DNA from: Gillisia sp. CAL575
GTDB taxonomy: Bacteria; Bacteroidota; Bacteroidia; Flavobacteriales; Flavobacteriaceae
Length of the DNA: 64,000 bases
Assembly: GCF_000403785.1 (NCBI RefSeq)
Contig: NZ_APHJ01000030.1
Location: forward strand, 1 to 64,000
Reading direction: 5' to 3'
Each line of letters opens with the position of its first letter. Within the stretch, counting starts at the first letter, position 1. The translations under genes and the position numbers were made by a program. The notes below the pieces were generated by a model that made no database searches, had not been told where the DNA came from, and saw nothing but the letters and a program-made list of their open reading frames with translations. Below, in pieces: positions 16,845 to 56,345 of the stretch.

Positions 16845-17575
16845 GCCACGAATATCCACAAATAAAACCGATGGGGGACAAGGCTATTCTTATAGATTTT
16901 GAACCAAAGATCAATGAAAATCTGCTCGAAAAGCTTTTAAATATCAAAGAATTTATAGAAAACGAATTAGTTAAAGAAAAGGTTGAAATAATAAACACAT
17001 ATTGTTCATTACTAATTATTTACCCTAACACTATAGAAAACCTCTATAATGAAGTTTTAACAATTAAAGCACTTATTTCCAATCCTAATATAGGTAAAAA
17101 TATCTCCCCAAATATTTTTAATATCCCGGTGTGTTATGATGAAGAATTCGGACTGGATTTGGTTCATATTTCCAAAGATAAAAACCTTAAAATTTCAGAG
17201 ATCATTGAGATTCATACGATTCCTATATACACAGTTTATTTCATAGGATTTTTACCCGGTTTTTTATACTTAGGTGGCTTGGATAAAAAGTTGAAAATTT
17301 CGAGAAAAGAAACCCCTAGATTAAAGGTAGAAAAAGGGGCTGTTGGAATAGGTGAAAATCAGACTGGAATTTATCCAAAAACCAGTCCGGGTGGATGGCA
17401 AATTGTTGGAAATTCTCCACTCATTTTTTTCGATAAAAATAACGAACCTCCATCAGTTATTTTACCTGGAGATAAAGTGAAATTTTATTCGATTTCAAAA
17501 AAGGAATATTTAGATATTTCAGAAGAAATAAAGTGCGGTAATTTTCAATTAAAAAGCGAAAAATATCATGGCTGA
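16841..17575 (+). CDS. pxpB: 5-oxoprolinase subunit B (KipI family)
   Basis: 244 aa. Motifs of the KipI/allophanate hydrolase subunit 1 family: MGDKAILIDF near the N-terminus, YFIGFLPGFLYLGGL, RLKVEKGAVGIGENQTGIYP, and SPGGWQIVG. It forms the ATP-using complex with PxpC. The start ATG overlaps the pxpA stop (ATGA), and the gene runs 8 bases into pxpC. In Bacillus KipI also inhibits the sporulation kinase KinA; nothing suggests that role here. Confidence 0.93.
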   Translation: MSHEYPQIKPMGDKAILIDFEPKINENLLEKLLNIKEFIENELVKEKVEIINTYCSLLIIYPNTIENLYNEVLTIKALISNPNIGKNISPNIFNIPVCYDEEFGLDLVHISKDKNLKISEIIEIHTIPIYTVYFIGFLPGFLYLGGLDKKLKISRKETPRLKVEKGAVGIGENQTGIYPKTSPGGWQIVGNSPLIFFDKNNEPPSVILPGDKVKFYSISKKEYLDISEEIKCGNFQLKSEKYHG

Positions 17576-18428
17576 GATTGAAGTTTTACATCCGGGATTA
17601 TATTCTTCTATTCAAGACTTGGGAAGATTTAATTTTAGAAAATTTGGTGTACCTCTAAGTGGTGCTATGGATTCTTATTCTGCAAAAATTGCCAATCTCA
17701 TTTTAGGTAATTCTATAGATAAACCTGTATTGGAAATCACTCAGCTGGGACCTAAATTAAAGTTTTTAGAAGCTAGTTTTATTTCTATATGCGGAGCACA
17801 ATTAAGCCCAAAGATTAACGATCGTGTTGTGCTAAATAATAAGCTGCTTCAAATAAATAAAAATGATGTCTTATCTTTTGGGAAGAGAAATCTAGGTTGT
17901 AGAGGATATATTGGAATTGAGGGAGGATTTATTTCAGAAAAAAATATGGAGAGCTATAGTTGGTATAGGTATATAACTAATTTTGAAACTTTGCAGAAGG
18001 GAATGAGATTAGAATATTTTTCAACTAAAAGGCAATCTTTTTCTATCAATGCGAGTGCCAAAATTGATTCGGGATATCTTGAAGATCTAAGCATAGAGGT
18101 TTATGAAGGACCAGAATTGAATTTGCTTTCACTTTCCCAGCAAAAAAAAATACTAAGTATGCGTTTTAAGGTAGATAATAATAACAATAGAATGGCAATA
18201 CAACTTCAGGAACCTCTCGTAAACTCACTTAAACCTATTATTACAGGGCCTGTGTTGCCGGGTACGGTACAGCTAACTCCTTCTGGCAAATTAATTGTTT
18301 TAATGAGAGACTGCCAAACAACAGGAGGCTATCCAAGAGTTTTGCAGCTTTCTGAGGAAGGAATAAATACGATGGCTCAAAAAGTTATTGGAGATGAAGT
18401 CTCATTTGCCTTAATTGAAATAAAATAA
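17568..18428 (+). CDS. pxpC: 5-oxoprolinase subunit C (KipA family)
   Basis: 286 aa, biotin-dependent-carboxyltransferase-like fold without a biotin domain. Family marks: LHPGLYSSIQDLGR at the N-terminus, FGVPLSGAMD, and the C-terminal MRDCQTTGGYPR. It completes pxpABC. It overlaps pxpB by 8 bases. The operon ends here; no obvious terminator lies between its stop and the RNA units that begin about 25 bases later. Confidence 0.93.
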   Translation: MAEIEVLHPGLYSSIQDLGRFNFRKFGVPLSGAMDSYSAKIANLILGNSIDKPVLEITQLGPKLKFLEASFISICGAQLSPKINDRVVLNNKLLQINKNDVLSFGKRNLGCRGYIGIEGGFISEKNMESYSWYRYITNFETLQKGMRLEYFSTKRQSFSINASAKIDSGYLEDLSIEVYEGPELNLLSLSQQKKILSMRFKVDNNNNRMAIQLQEPLVNSLKPIITGPVLPGTVQLTPSGKLIVLMRDCQTTGGYPRVLQLSEEGINTMAQKVIGDEVSFALIEIK

Positions 18429-18453
18429 CAAATATTACGTTTTAAAGTTAATA

Positions 18454-18618
18454 CGAAAAAGTGTCGGTTAAAATGTTTTAAAGATTTAAAGCCCTACCTA
18501 AAAATCGATTTGCATTTCTAACGACACTTTTTTAACCTTAACATATAAAAGCTAATTAATTGAATACTCAAAAATAAGCTTGACTCTAATTTCTCGCAAG
18601 GGTATTTTTCCCCTTTTT
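18454..18618 (+). ncRNA. putative small RNA, tandem unit 1 of 3
   Basis: An outer stem AAAAAGTGTCG / CGACACTTTTT (18456-18466 with 18522-18532) encloses a second stem AAATG/CATTT and a third GATTT/AAATC, closing a loop that contains GCCCTACCTA (18491-18500). A linker of about 65 bases leads to a terminator-like hairpin AAGGG-CCCTT followed by T (18598-18618). Total length is about 165. Units 2 and 3 share loop and outer stem while the inner stems change on both sides, which argues for a folded RNA. No promoter could be identified with confidence. It could be a free RNA or part of a leader. Confidence 0.65.
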
Positions 18619-18655
18619 ATGTTCTAGAAATTAAGGTTTAATATCTAGAACATAA
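18617..18655. repeat. perfect 12-base inverted repeat between RNA units 1 and 2
   Basis: TTATGTTCTAGA (18617-18628) and TCTAGAACATAA (18644-18655) are exact inverted copies around a 15-base AT-rich spacer that itself partly pairs. It directly follows the T tract of unit 1. It may be an extended hairpin, a regulator site or part of the unit 2 promoter region; no equivalent perfect repeat stands before unit 3. Confidence 0.7.
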
Positions 18656-18683
18656 ATTATCTTAAAATCTTCTTTCTTTTAAT

Positions 18684-18845
18684 AAAAAGGTGTCGTCTTT
18701 TGTGTTATTAGATCTATTATTAGCCCCACCTAGTAATACATCACACATTAAACGACACTTCTTTTTTTGAAACATTCAACATTTATTTCAAACCAAAAAT
18801 ACGCTACACTTTAATCTACTACAAGGGGGTTTTTCCCTTTTTTTA
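18684..18845 (+). ncRNA. putative small RNA, tandem unit 2 of 3
   Basis: Outer stem AAGGTGTCGT / ACGACACTT with one G-U pair, second stem TGTG/CACA, and a fully paired third stem TATTATTA / TAGTAATA closing the loop GCCCCACC (18723-18730). The second and third stems differ from unit 1 in both arms, so pairing is kept although sequence is not. A terminator-like hairpin AAGGG-CCCTT with eight T follows at 18823-18845. Unit length is about 162, as in units 1 and 3. Confidence 0.65.
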
Positions 18846-18895
18846 TTTTATTCGCTTTTCTGAGGTTATTCTTTTTCTGAAGAAATTACTATAAA

Positions 18896-19064
18896 CGAAA
18901 AAGTGCCGGGAATGCATTTTTCAATAATTAGAAGCCCTACCTAATAATTATTCACACATTTCGACACTTTATTTTGTTTCATCCTAACTTTTATATCAAG
19001 TAGAATGATAAATCAAATTTATATAATAGGTTAATTGTAATAAAGGGGATTTTTCCCCTTTTTT
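18896..19064 (+). ncRNA. putative small RNA, tandem unit 3 of 3
   Basis: Outer stem AAAAAGTGCCG / CGACACTTT has one C-A mismatch. The second stem is GAATG/CATTT(C) and the third AATAATTA/TAATTATT, closing a loop with GCCCTACCTA (18934-18943). The terminator-like hairpin AAAGGGG-CCCCTTTTTT (19042-19064) is the strongest of the three. It ends 61 bases before the next start codon, so unit 3 could also act as a cis leader. The preceding bases ATAAACGAAAAAGTG resemble those before unit 1 (AATACGAAAAAGTG). Confidence 0.65.
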
Positions 19065-19125
19065 CGGATTTAGAAAAATATGTTAAAGAAAAATTTTACT
19101 TTTAACAAAATTTGAATTATCAAGT

Positions 19126-19515
19126 ATGGCAAAACCTAGTAAAAGCATATCAGTAGAAGCGGCGAAAGCACTTCAGAATAAATGGAAAGAATCACGAGCT
19201 TTAGAAATTGAACAAGCCCAAGGTTACCAAGACACACGTGAGTTTTGGTATAGTTTGGAAGAGTTACAAGATTACCTAGATTATGTAAAAGAACAATCTA
19301 TCGCACAGGGAATAAGTAAACCTGGGATAAGGATATATTTTGGGGCTTATGCGAAAACTCCTACTAAAAAAAGTTATGCTACAATTTTTTTAGCTCCCAC
19401 CAAAGAGAAATCTAATCCTATTTTAGAAGATGGAGAAGCTGTGAATAATGAAAATAATTATGATATAGATCCTATGAATATAGGCTCTAATGGTTATCCT
19501 CCAATAAATTATTAA
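19126..19515 (+). CDS. conserved flavobacterial protein with C-terminal PPxxY tail, function unknown
   Basis: 129 aa, no signal peptide, no transmembrane segment. An N-terminal helical part (about 1-60; KSISVEAAKALQNKWKESR, then EELQDYLDYVKEQS) is followed by a small beta region (GIRIYFGAYAKTPTKKSYATIFLAPT) and a flexible tail, YDIDPMNIGSNGYPPINY. I recall similar proteins in many Flavobacteriia but no assigned function. Its stop overlaps the next start (TAATG), so it is coupled to the seven-helix protein. The 28-aa peptide at 20296 carries a version of the same tail, which suggests that the tail is the active part or a recognition signal. Confidence 0.75.
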   Translation: MAKPSKSISVEAAKALQNKWKESRALEIEQAQGYQDTREFWYSLEELQDYLDYVKEQSIAQGISKPGIRIYFGAYAKTPTKKSYATIFLAPTKEKSNPILEDGEAVNNENNYDIDPMNIGSNGYPPINY

Positions 19516-20240
19516 TGCAATTCTTATTTTTGTTTATTGCAATTTTTTTAGAAGGTTTTAGTGTTATTGCAGGGATTTATTATTTAAAAAAAATGCCAAA
19601 TGATTTAAGTAACAAGCTGCTTACGTATTTTTTGCTTATTACTTTCACAGTAGAAATTACAGGGCTTATTCCTGCAATTATTTACCATAATGAAGCATTA
19701 CATCATTTAAAAGACACTGTTTGGTACACCAATTTTTGGTTATTTAATCCTTATTTAGTTGTTAGTTTTGCATTTTACTGTTATTACTTCGGAAGGAGCC
19801 TTCAAAGCAGAATTCTAAAGAATATTTTAAACTATTCAGTAATTGTTTTTGTGATTTCAAGTTTCTTGATTCTTATTTTTTCTGATGTTTTGTTTGTTTC
19901 TCATTCTTACTTTACATTATTTTTTGGTGTTGCATTATTATTTTTAGCAATTAGTTTTTATTATTATGAGTTACTTCGAGATGAAAAATTATTGGATATA
20001 AAAAGAAGTGTTAAATTTTATGTCTCTGTAGCATTTCTTCTCTTTAATTTAATTTCGTTGCCACTCTGGATTTACTTTAAATATTTTAGCAATACTATAA
20101 GCCCGGAATTTGTGAAATTATACCAATCAATTTTTTATTTATCTAATGTGTTGCTATATAGCACCTATATTTTTGCTTTTATCTATTGTGCGCAGCAAAA
20201 ACAATTTCCTGTGATAAATCAAAACAAGAGTGTTCCATAA
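19515..20240 (+). CDS. seven-helix membrane protein, unknown, paralogue of the one at 20399
   Basis: 241 aa with seven clear hydrophobic helices and short loops. Marks shared with the paralogue at 20399-21136 are a first helix ending in GxYYLxKxP, ILNY before helix 4, YY(Y/F)EL after helix 5, KFYVS/LFYVS in helix 6 and AFIYCA at the end of helix 7. No catalytic motif (HExxH, GxSG, EExxxR) is visible, so a sensor or partner role is more likely than a protease. It is translationally coupled to the PPxxY-tail protein. Function unknown. Confidence 0.8.
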   Translation: MQFLFLFIAIFLEGFSVIAGIYYLKKMPNDLSNKLLTYFLLITFTVEITGLIPAIIYHNEALHHLKDTVWYTNFWLFNPYLVVSFAFYCYYFGRSLQSRILKNILNYSVIVFVISSFLILIFSDVLFVSHSYFTLFFGVALLFLAISFYYYELLRDEKLLDIKRSVKFYVSVAFLLFNLISLPLWIYFKYFSNTISPEFVKLYQSIFYLSNVLLYSTYIFAFIYCAQQKQFPVINQNKSVP

Positions 20241-20295
20241 AATGAGTGGAGAAGAGGAGTTACTTACTTTTTTCTGTTGCTAAAATTTAATGTAA

Positions 20296-20382
20296 ATGGA
20301 GAAAGAATACGAAGATGTTGTAAATGATGATATAGAACCGTTTAATGGAACTGGCAGATTATGGCCTCCATTAGGATACTAA
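20296..20382 (+). CDS. 28-aa peptide sharing the PPxxY tail
   Basis: An ATG at 20296 opens 28 codons ending in TAA. The C-terminal half, DDIEPFNGTGRLWPPLGY, lines up with YDIDPMNIGSNGYPPINY at the end of the 129-aa protein: D-I-acidic-P-x-N-x-G, then PP-x-x-Y at the terminus. The first ten residues are highly acidic. It lies 16 bases before the second seven-helix gene, the same position that the larger protein holds relative to the first. It may be a reduced copy that keeps only the tail, or a signalling peptide. Confidence 0.6.
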   Translation: MEKEYEDVVNDDIEPFNGTGRLWPPLGY

Positions 20383-20398
20383 TAGTGATAAAAGACAT

Positions 20399-21136
20399 AT
20401 GCTGGATTTTATAATAGAAAATAAAATTTATGTTACTTATATTTTTGAATTTATTGCAGCTATAAGTGGCAGTTACTATTTAAATAAAACTCCAAAAGTT
20501 CGAAAGGAAATTATATATTTCTCATGGTTTATATGGTTTGTGTTTTTGATAGATCTTAGTGGTTTATATTCTTTATGGGCTTTTTTTGATGATTATAAAA
20601 CATTCCCTTTTTTAAAAGATTCATTATTTACTCGTAATGTCTGGTTATATAATTGGTTACATTTAATAAGTCTTTCTTTTTACAGCTTTTTATATATTAA
20701 ACAGATTGAAAGAATTAAGTACAAAAGAATTTTAAATTATGCCTTACTTATTTTTATCGGATTCGGAATAATTAAATTATCAAGTACAAATCAGATTTTC
20801 TTTACTTATGATATGTCAATTCTTATTGCAGGAGTTGTATTGCTAATAATTGCTATTTCTACCTATTATTTTGAGCTAATACTTAGTGATAGAATTCTAT
20901 ACCTTAAAAATAATTTACTCTTTTATGTTTCTATAGGTCTTCTAATTTGGCATTTATGTGTACCTCCAATTCAAATATATAGTGCTTATTTTTCTATTGA
21001 AAATGTTGAATTTATTAACATGTATACAACTGTTTTGATGTATAGTAATATTTTCATGTATGGCATGTTTTCCCTTGCATTTATTTATTGCGCAAAAAGA
21101 AATTCCGATTTAGGTTTGAAAACTATTTCTCAGTAA
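20399..21136 (+). CDS. seven-helix membrane protein, unknown, second paralogue
   Basis: 245 aa, seven hydrophobic helices. Shares with the first paralogue the GSYYLNKTP end of helix 1, ILNYA, STYYFELI, LLFYVS and the terminal AFIYCAKR, while the loops differ, so the pair arose by an old duplication. No known enzymatic motif. It stands between a tail peptide and a histidine kinase that itself has almost no sensor domain, so these proteins may supply the membrane sensing function. That is inference from order only. Confidence 0.8.
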   Translation: MLDFIIENKIYVTYIFEFIAAISGSYYLNKTPKVRKEIIYFSWFIWFVFLIDLSGLYSLWAFFDDYKTFPFLKDSLFTRNVWLYNWLHLISLSFYSFLYIKQIERIKYKRILNYALLIFIGFGIIKLSSTNQIFFTYDMSILIAGVVLLIIAISTYYFELILSDRILYLKNNLLFYVSIGLLIWHLCVPPIQIYSAYFSIENVEFINMYTTVLMYSNIFMYGMFSLAFIYCAKRNSDLGLKTISQ

Positions 21137-21225: not shown

Positions 21226-22011
21226 ATGCTAGCTAAGGAAGAACTTCTACTTATTGTTTATTTTATTGTGGTCATTCTATTATTGACCAGTTTTGCTATA
21301 ATCTTCTTTATTACTTTCCACAAACGAAAGAACACACTACTTTATGAGAAATTTGAAGCTGAAAAACGTTTCGAAAATGAATTGGCACAGTCTAAAATTG
21401 AAATTCAAGAACAAACTTTAAAAAATGTTAGCTGGGAATTGCACGATAATATTGGGCAATTACTGTCGGTTGCTAATATGCAACTAAATATTCTAACAGG
21501 GACAGTGGACGAGGAGGTCAAACAATCTGTTAAAGATATTAAAGAAGTTGTTTCTAATTCCTTGCAAGAGGTACGTTCCCTTTCCAAATCCTTAAATAAT
21601 GAAGTGATAAGTTACACCGGGATTGAGGCATCAATAAAAAATGAATTATCTAGATTTGAGAGACTTAATAATATAAAAACCGAAATTTTTACCGAAGGTG
21701 AAACTTTTGATATTATTGAAAAAGATTCTATAATTCTATTTAGAATAATTCAGGAATTTTTCTCTAACATTATAAAGCATGCAAGCGCTTCCAAGATAGA
21801 GGTGCATATTAAGTATCATATAGATGAGATGAATATCAGTATAAAAGACAATGGAAAAGGTTTTAATATTGATGAAGTTATCAAAAGTTCTGGTTTAATT
21901 AATATGGAAAGTCGCGCTGCGCTTATAAATACTAAAATAGAAATTCAGTCCATTCCAGATAAAGGAACTTCTTTGTCTTTAAATTATCCTAAAAAAGTCT
22001 CTTCCCTATGA
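21226..22011 (+). CDS. sensor histidine kinase, HisKA_3/NarX-DesK type
   Basis: 261 aa from the ATG at 21226 (a TTG at 21217 would add three residues). One N-terminal transmembrane helix (LLLIVYFIVVILLLTSFAIIFFI), a coiled coil, then the HisKA_3 H-box WELHDNIGQLLSVANMQL with phospho-His73, the N-box EFFSNIIKHA and the G-box DNGKGF. There is no periplasmic or PAS input domain, so the signal must come through the membrane segment or a partner. It overlaps the response regulator by 4 bases (ATGA). Confidence 0.92.
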   Translation: MLAKEELLLIVYFIVVILLLTSFAIIFFITFHKRKNTLLYEKFEAEKRFENELAQSKIEIQEQTLKNVSWELHDNIGQLLSVANMQLNILTGTVDEEVKQSVKDIKEVVSNSLQEVRSLSKSLNNEVISYTGIEASIKNELSRFERLNNIKTEIFTEGETFDIIEKDSIILFRIIQEFFSNIIKHASASKIEVHIKYHIDEMNISIKDNGKGFNIDEVIKSSGLINMESRAALINTKIEIQSIPDKGTSLSLNYPKKVSSL

Positions 22012-22637
22012 AAAAGACGATAGTCATCGTTGACGATCACACATTGTTTGCACAATCTCTTCAAGGTCTTGTAAATTCTTTTCAAGAATATGAGGTATTA
22101 AAAGTCCTAAAGAACGGACAGGAATTACTAGATTATTTTAAAGCTAATCACAAACGTCCGGATATTATTTTGTTAGATATTAGAATGCCAATAATGGATG
22201 GGGTTTCCACAATGTCCTGGTTAAAAGAGCATTTTCCCGAGCAAAAAACATTGGCCCTTACTATGGAACATGACGAGGAAATCATTATTAAAATGATTAG
22301 AATGGGTAGTAGAGGTTATTTATTAAAAGATATAGAGCCAGAAGAATTTCTATATGCATTAGAATCTGTTAATTCCAGTGGCTATTATTTTAGCGAAGAA
22401 ATTGTAGAAGTAATGGATCTGCATACTTCAAAAAACTATGGTGATCTTACCAATAGAGAAATGGAATTTTTAAACCATGCTTGTTCAGAAAAGACATATA
22501 AAGAGGTTGCGGAAGAAATGCATTTAAGTCCAAAAACTATAGATGGCTATCGTGAAAGCTTGTTCTCTAAACTACAAGTTAAAAGTAGAGTTGGAATGGT
22601 GCTCTTTGCAGTAAAGAATAATATTGTCAGGATTTAA
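22008..22637 (+). CDS. LuxR/NarL-family response regulator
   Basis: 209 aa. Receiver domain about 1-120: acidic pocket VDDH, phosphoacceptor Asp57 in LLDIRMPIMDG, conserved Lys in LLKD. The C-terminal helix-turn-helix (about 145-205) reads LTNREMEFLNHACSEKTYKEVAEEM with LSPKTIDGY as recognition helix region. It pairs with the coupled kinase. The closest visible candidate targets are the RNA units and the seven-helix genes upstream, but no operator was identified. Confidence 0.94.
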   Translation: MKKTIVIVDDHTLFAQSLQGLVNSFQEYEVLKVLKNGQELLDYFKANHKRPDIILLDIRMPIMDGVSTMSWLKEHFPEQKTLALTMEHDEEIIIKMIRMGSRGYLLKDIEPEEFLYALESVNSSGYYFSEEIVEVMDLHTSKNYGDLTNREMEFLNHACSEKTYKEVAEEMHLSPKTIDGYRESLFSKLQVKSRVGMVLFAVKNNIVRI

Positions 22638-56224: not shown

Positions 56225-56345
56225 ATTTGTTTTTGCATTAGGGATTGCAGCGATATCCTTTTGATTATTGTTTGGAAATTAAAAGATTTAGCGGAAAGCC
56301 CGACAGCTTTATTACGCTTGTTTGAGGCGTAATGAAGGTGGAATG
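56225..56345. repeat. interspersed structured repeat upstream of dnaK
   Basis: TATTTGTTTTTGCATTAGGGATTGCAGCG..ATCCTTTT..AAAAGAT..AGCGGAAAGCCCGAC followed by TTACGC/GCGTAA. From memory, AGGGATTG...ATCCTTTT...GCGGAAAGCCCGAC is a widespread intergenic element of Bacteroidota. It fills the middle of the 316-base gap; the dnaK promoter probably lies in the AT-rich 110 bases after it. Confidence 0.6.

Follow-up and report, generated by a model that had tools for sequence, protein, structure and literature searches.

Results

Organization of the locus

The window analysed here, a 64-kb stretch of DNA from Gillisia sp. CAL575, contains three homologous tandem units of approximately 160–170 nt (18455–18620, 18684–18844 and 18897–19065) at a spacing of about 220 nt, in agreement with an earlier note on this DNA. 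They are located between pxpC and genes for a conserved protein, two paralogous membrane proteins and a two-component system (Table 1). Read on the minus strand, each unit comprises a promoter-like region and a predicted small RNA (sRNA); the end of the copy 1 RNA is the end of its U-run, counted on the printed sequence. The gene names pxpC, asnS, TssD and nitrilase are presumptive unless backed by a Pfam match. An inverted repeat of 19 bp (95% complementary, 3-nt loop; 18616–18656) lies between units 1 and 2.

Table 1. Predicted features of the locus in window coordinates (R2, covariance model of the minus strand)
Feature	Position	Strand	Remarks
pxpC	17568..18428	+	upstream neighbour, convergent with the sRNAs
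sRNA copy 1	18456..18564 (18564 down to 18456, ~109 nt)	-	R2 118.5 bits; hexaloop GUAGGG 18497-18492
sRNA copy 1 start	18564, 5 nt past the -7 box	-	fold -24.4 kcal/mol, z -3.49
Copy 1 putative promoter	18569..18616	-	palindrome-like AAGGGGAAAAATACCCTT ~18615-18598, TTG 18599-18597, TATTTTTG 18576-18569
sRNA copy 2	18684..18789 (18789 down to 18684, ~106 nt)	-	R2 107.9 bits; hexaloop GUGGGG 18729-18724
sRNA copy 2 start	18789	-	fold -29.4 kcal/mol, z -4.55
Copy 2 putative promoter	18794..18841	-	imperfect palindrome AAAGGGAAAAACCCCCTT, TTG 18824-18822, TATTTTTG 18801-18794
sRNA copy 3	18898..19009 (19009 down to 18898, ~112 nt)	-	R2 106.9 bits; hexaloop GUAGGG 18940-18935
sRNA copy 3 start	19009	-	fold -28.4 kcal/mol, z -3.65
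Copy 3 putative promoter	19014..19061	-	exact palindrome AAGGGGAAAAATCCCCTT 19060-19043, TTT 19044-19042, TAAATTTG 19021-19014
hyp129, conserved 129-aa protein	19126..19515	+	
Predicted seven-helix membrane protein, paralogue 1	19515..20240	+	
Predicted seven-helix membrane protein, paralogue 2	20399..21136	+	
HisKA_3 sensor histidine kinase	21226..22011	+	
Response regulator, GerE/LuxR-type DNA-binding domain (NarL type)	22008..22637	+	proposed sRNA activator
Flavo-1 RNA (RF01705)	56230..56309	+	53.9 bits (gathering score 42)

The structure model of hyp129 (pLDDT 79.7) had no match in the PDB at E ≤ 0.001. The model of the first seven-helix membrane protein (pLDDT 88.4) consists of seven long helices; the protein matched neither Pfam nor NCBIfam, and its best Foldseek hit had an E-value of 0.18. 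Comparison of this model with GPCRs by VIA yielded Z values of at most 13.5 and an rmsd of 4.0 over 205 residues, values that fall inside the background given by the tool for helical bundles, so that we claim no kinship. We regard hyp129 and the seven-helix proteins as no more than candidate sensors or modulators. At the homologous loci, their genes (19126–21136 in the window) differ among species both in number and in order.

None of the Rfam 15 families matched the window units or six related loci at gathering score, which is in line with the previous statement that the units belong to no named family, and a relaxed search of 18300–19200 returned only sub-threshold matches of other families, mostly microRNA-type hairpins. 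Flavo-1, formerly put forward as the first candidate, is likewise a flavobacterial intergenic RNA and is present in the same window, but its sole match there lies far from the units, with none inside them even at E up to 5.

Strand and structure of the predicted RNA

Two sets of units were compared: 47 context units, i.e. 48 matches minus an overlapping opposite-strand match at 1615–1766 of locus L084, and 44 units from named genomes, including two weak matches of 54.5 and 44.5 bits. The earlier note had taken the plus strand as that of the RNA, and on this strand units 1–3 have folding z-scores of −3.73, −4.62 and −1.36. Minimum free energy, however, was lower for the minus strand in 46 of the 47 context units (means of −42.5 versus −32.4 kcal/mol), and the core hairpin was better on the minus strand in 45 of 47, with one tie. 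For one outer-stem pair, half of the cells (8/16) in an alignment of 16 units from seven genomes were unpaired on the plus strand; by eye these are C·A combinations, which correspond to U·G pairs on the minus strand. Helix cells of the 44 named-genome units, read on the minus strand, comprised 1297 Watson–Crick pairs, 136 G·U, 15 A·C and 90 other combinations. Because of the fold energies and the preponderance of G·U over A·C, we assign the RNA to the minus strand.

Covariation of the stem arms, already suspected before, was evident in both orientations. The plus-strand alignment (16 units, seven genomes) had 16 cells with double changes compared with 5.8 in shuffles, and 0 of 500 shuffles reached 16; in the minus-strand model 93.2% of the cells were paired, 14 of 35 pairs showed double changes, and 102 double-change cells were counted versus 35.6 in shuffles, with 0 of 500 shuffles as high, although, with related sequences and alignments that follow the model, these counts are not probabilities. 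Sliding the partner by one to three columns lowered pairing to 40–58%. A first consensus fold, based on a plus-strand MAFFT alignment, contained only 10 pairs, one of them with a double change, and was discarded.

The outer stem, the variable inner stem and the constant loop described previously were all recovered. On the DNA plus strand the loop reads CCCTAC in units 1 and 3 and CCCCAC in unit 2, equivalent to the RNA hexaloops GUAGGG and GUGGGG. One of these two apical hexaloops is present in 44 of the 47 context units and in 42 of the 44 named-genome units (other loops: three and two, respectively), and the base pairs flanking it differ by genus. The T-run of the minus strand is conserved, whereas that of the plus strand is weak in several Salegentibacter and Christiangramia units. 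Across the 44 named-genome units, the predicted RNA is thus a conserved, covarying structure with a terminal U-run. Homologues and covariation, whose absence had been named as evidence against an RNA gene, were both found, and the notion of a triplicated gene for a structured RNA, as opposed to a decayed gene, is supported.

A promoter-like element and a palindrome upstream of each copy

On the minus strand the units share a common order, which consists of a palindrome (at best AAGGGG-N6-CCCCTT), TTG or TTT, 20 nt, TAnnTTTG and the RNA of about 110 nt. The −33 TTG box is a promoter element of Bacteroidetes. With a spacer of 20, TAnnTTTG was present with five or six of six matches in 45 of the 47 context units and in 42 of 43 scored named-genome units (L164, which is devoid of the CCCTT anchor, was left out of the 44), and none of the other spacers between 14 and 26 accounted for more than three units; ties were assigned to spacer 20, which did not affect the counts of at least five matches. 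The third base of the −33 box (TTG in 39 and TTT in 8 of 47 units) provides a weak test since TT is fixed by anchoring on CCCTT and only this base is free. A general sigma-70 scan revealed no excess (7 found, 7.6 expected). According to the accessible part of a study on Flavobacterium psychrophilum, TAnnTTTG is the −7 box of sigma-A promoters, located at −12 to −5 (PMC9723704).

The GGG-TTTTT-CCC hairpin had been described as terminator-like. In the Gillisia genome the palindrome can indeed form such a hairpin on the plus strand, with a T-run behind it; yet none of the six pairs of the GGGG/CCCC helix shows a double change. Owing to this lack and to the position directly upstream of the −33/−7 promoter of the minus strand, we prefer to interpret the hairpin as a palindrome of the DNA. 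Ideas of antiterminator pairing and of pairing between loop and terminator were dropped given that the 5' part is promoter.

The exact palindrome is found at a single place in the Gillisia genome, in unit 3, those of units 1 and 2 being imperfect. A relaxed pattern of palindrome plus promoter had three matches in this genome, namely the three units, compared with one for the reversed pattern, which served as the only control. In the genus, the exact palindrome with promoter matched 18 times in 12 of 16 genomes, always in units at the pxpC–regulator locus, and the control pattern not at all. Judging from these alignments and motif counts, it is very probable that the minus strand carries a flavobacterial housekeeping-type promoter, followed by an RNA whose covarying, terminator-like 3' hairpin displays the nearly invariant G-rich hexaloop. 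Each copy is probably a separate gene with a promoter-like start and a terminator-like end of its own.

Distribution and context of the RNA

An exact motif pattern was found in seven of 60 genomes, all of the genus and including that of the window. Model R1 (plus-strand covariance model built from 16 units) detected the RNA in 16 of 16 genus genomes with a best match of at least 95 bits each. Among 299 family genomes, scores of at least 78 bits were confined to two genomes of the genus and to G069, G294, G303 and G138, while 18 further genomes had matches of at most 47 bits. Of 397 family genomes, which are samples of a larger group, 8 had R2 matches above 100 bits, and at E < 0.001, a rough value for such home-made covariance models, R2 found only the three units in the Gillisia genome. 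Strong copies lie at the pxpC–regulator locus in this genome and in 15 others of the genus. When named genomes were scanned with a conserved-stretch pattern, which detects the ancestral unit type only, 33 stretches were obtained, 31 of them from Gillisia, Salegentibacter, Christiangramia or Gramella. The RNA is present in 32, among which are same-organism pairs of Gramella jeungdoensis, Gillisia limnaea and Gramella sp. KN1008; the remaining stretch, L173, has neither an R2 match nor locus genes. One conserved stretch of the RNA had no match in viral contigs, and the window region had none in plasmids.

The locus is constant as far as the stretches reach: pxpC is followed by RNA units (one to four copies) and hyp129/membrane-protein genes, and then by kinase and regulator. 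The regulator gene is present in all of the 20 context loci except L084, which ends with its contig, and in 22 of 32 named-genome stretches, the other 10 ending before the regulator position; the kinase gene is present in 18 of 20 context loci. The locus of G138 is devoid of hyp129, membrane proteins and kinase but has retained the RNA and the regulator; in G338, a relative of G138, the kinase, hyp129 and a membrane protein are all present. In 29 of 32 named-genome stretches the RNA is oriented opposite to the neighbouring genes, and in three, all from Salegentibacter, it has the same direction as they do. As this orientation varies and the tandem copies in the window have no gene between them, the RNA is not a leader, and the tandem-leader alternative of the earlier note finds no support.

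Palindrome and promoter elsewhere in the family

In the 397 family genomes the exact palindrome with promoter had 20 matches, distributed over 15 genomes, compared with one match of the control. Six of them are units of the window RNA family. Seven of the other 14 precede short sRNA-like hairpin stretches (one each in G367, G389, G216, G334 and G324; two in G261). In G367, G389, G216 and G334 (L209, L211, L212 and L218) the sRNA-like gene, unrelated to the window RNA, adjoins an asnS-like gene. These four asnS-side RNAs have GGGG in a hairpin loop, which is not clearly so in the other three stretches; L211 (G389) has hairpins and a weak T-run. Three further matches lie ahead of a hyp129-like gene followed by a membrane-protein gene (G261, G417 and G262; hmmsearch E-values of 2e-13, 3e-18 and 1e-9), and two, each at another locus of G303 and G294 (L208, L221), precede a hydrophobic peptide of 34–37 aa. 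The remaining two are L206 and L210; at L210, palindrome and promoter are upstream of a 238-aa gene that presumably resembles a type VI secretion tube protein (TssD).

A third sRNA-like stretch behind palindrome and promoter was noted in genus g243 (L220, L223, L224 and L225), where its terminator-like 3' end is conserved, and a similar stretch exists in two more genomes of that genus (G433, G435). In the short loci examined, no regulator gene lies beside the palindrome of the sRNA-like genes of other genera; a weak regulator match at L213 proved by translation to be another type of response regulator. Matches of 35–47 bits outside the three genera had at first been ascribed to chance, but five such places (G303:C1, G294:C56, G324, G334 and G261:C113) hold palindrome and promoter with a different sequence behind. 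While hyp129 is found in 166 of 299 family genomes, the exact palindrome with promoter is limited to 15 of 397; hence, most genomes with hyp129 are either wired otherwise or have a diverged operator.

Discussion

The interpretation that best accounts for our data, and which we consider likely, is that several copies of a trans-acting sRNA are under the control of the response regulator encoded nearby. The presence of the regulator gene at the locus and a palindrome specific to the three units in the Gillisia genome suggest this link, and it is on balance probable that the regulator binds the 18-bp palindrome and switches on all copies jointly. The kinase would phosphorylate the regulator, possibly under the influence of hyp129 and the seven-helix proteins, whereupon the phosphorylated regulator would bind the palindrome, whose centre lies some 43 nt ahead of the predicted start, and induce all sRNA copies together. 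Under joint induction, copy number would help to set the RNA dose. It is tempting to speculate that the G-rich hexaloop then pairs in trans with C-rich stretches of target mRNAs, a mode of action that we propose tentatively; inspection of CCCTAC near the start codons of local genes revealed nothing systematic.

Alternatively, the minus-strand sRNAs could be genuine while the palindrome is bound by another factor or is a mere insulating terminator, with kinase and regulator being bystanders. This model draws on the fact that binding of the regulator to the palindrome is deduced, on the ability of the palindrome to form a terminator-like hairpin on the plus strand, and on the sRNA-like loci that have no regulator gene beside them. 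Nevertheless, we regard it as rather unlikely in view of the fixed distance at which the palindrome joins the −33 box, the confinement of the exact palindrome to a single site of the genome, its position ahead of hyp129 and seven-helix genes in three other genomes, and the retention of just regulator and RNA in G138.

Another model retains regulator control of the minus-strand sRNA and differs in its mode of action: instead of pairing with mRNAs, the RNA would serve as a decoy, its G-rich hexaloop being recognized by an RNA-binding protein. CsrB and RsmZ are decoys of this kind for CsrA and RsmA. Multiple copies, the strong covariation of the stems, the constancy of the apical loop and the Gac/Rsm-like promoter layout are compatible with such a function. 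On the other hand, each RNA displays a single loop and not many, the loop changes to GUGGGG in one class, and we know of no protein that binds it. A decoy role thus also appears improbable to us, if worth considering.

Plus-strand RNAs or tandem leaders that end in the GGG-TTTTT-CCC terminator on the side between pxpC and hyp129 would share their direction with the genes in most genomes, and T residues do follow the hairpin in the window. Fold energies and the G·U/A·C counts favour the opposite strand, however, no comparable promoter was visible by eye on the upstream side of the plus strand, the conserved T-run is that of the minus strand, and 3 of 32 stretches have the units reversed relative to the gene that follows, which makes this reading very unlikely. 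Hardly credible at all is a DNA-level element, such as a recombination or hairpin site, that shuffles hyp129 and seven-helix genes without any RNA gene: the copies are indeed interleaved with variable numbers of these genes, but strong copies sit at one locus in this genome and in 15 others of the genus, the promoter layout has fixed spacing, and neither the conserved stretch in viral contigs nor the window region in plasmids had a match.

Returning to regulator-controlled, trans-acting sRNAs, our searches of the openly accessible literature brought up no description of the RNA or of such a circuit. The hairpin loops of CsrB/RsmZ-type sRNAs contain multiple GGA motifs, to which CsrA or RsmA binds. 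By contrast, GGA occurs zero, zero and one times in the three window RNAs, which have no repeated GGA loops and display the G-rich hexaloop GUAGGG or GUGGGG instead. Common to the Gac/Rsm system of Pseudomonas and the locus described here are redundant small structured RNAs and a NarL-type regulator with a GerE domain; differences are that the window sRNA genes adjoin the two-component genes and that the kinase is a simple HisKA_3 protein. According to the accessible part of the source, the redundant sRNA genes rsmX, rsmY and rsmZ are preceded by an 18-bp GacA site, TGTAAG-N6-CTTACA (PMC4950607). The palindrome upstream of the promoter described here (AAGGGG-N6-CCCCTT) has the same 6-N6-6 layout but a different sequence, and would be comparable as a putative regulator site.

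The LhrC1–5 sRNAs of Listeria, as far as the available portion of the report goes, are likewise multicopy, have their own promoters, are induced via LisR and act through conserved single-stranded loops (PMC5880928). The window RNAs, with promoter-like starts of their own, proposed control by a response regulator and a conserved loop, resemble them in logic. The CU-rich loops of LhrC base-pair with Shine-Dalgarno regions, while the loop of the window RNA, on the supported strand, is G-rich. A structured sRNA of the same family, Flavobacteriaceae, is Rfp18 of F. psychrophilum, which, in the accessible part of its description, is thought to act on mRNAs and is conserved in the genus Flavobacterium; compared by description only, the window RNA differs in scoring above 100 bits in just 8 of 397 family genomes (PMC9723704). 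The proposed circuit would be similar to Gac/Rsm or LhrC/LisR in logic and is probably unrelated to them in sequence.

With sensor candidates, kinase, regulator, putative operator and one to four copies of the output RNA assembled in one locus, the proposed circuit is amenable to testing in a culturable marine flavobacterium. Given that flavobacterial mRNAs are without Shine-Dalgarno sequences, as stated in the accessible part of the F. psychrophilum study (PMC9723704), the mode of action of a G-rich loop in an sRNA becomes a sharp question. Moreover, the pattern of palindrome plus promoter offers a simple handle for further sRNAs of the family, as 14 of its 20 matches lie outside the window RNA family. 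Somewhat doubtful, in our view, is the wider proposal of a family-wide circuit in which kinase and NarL-type regulator, together with hyp129 and the seven-helix proteins, act largely via several unrelated types of sRNA, with AAGGGG-N6-CCCCTT as operator at a fixed position ahead of the window RNA, the asnS-side and g243 sRNAs and the hyp129 operons. If true, Bacteroidetes would possess in this circuit a counterpart of the Gac/Rsm system in which a G-rich code takes the place of GGA.
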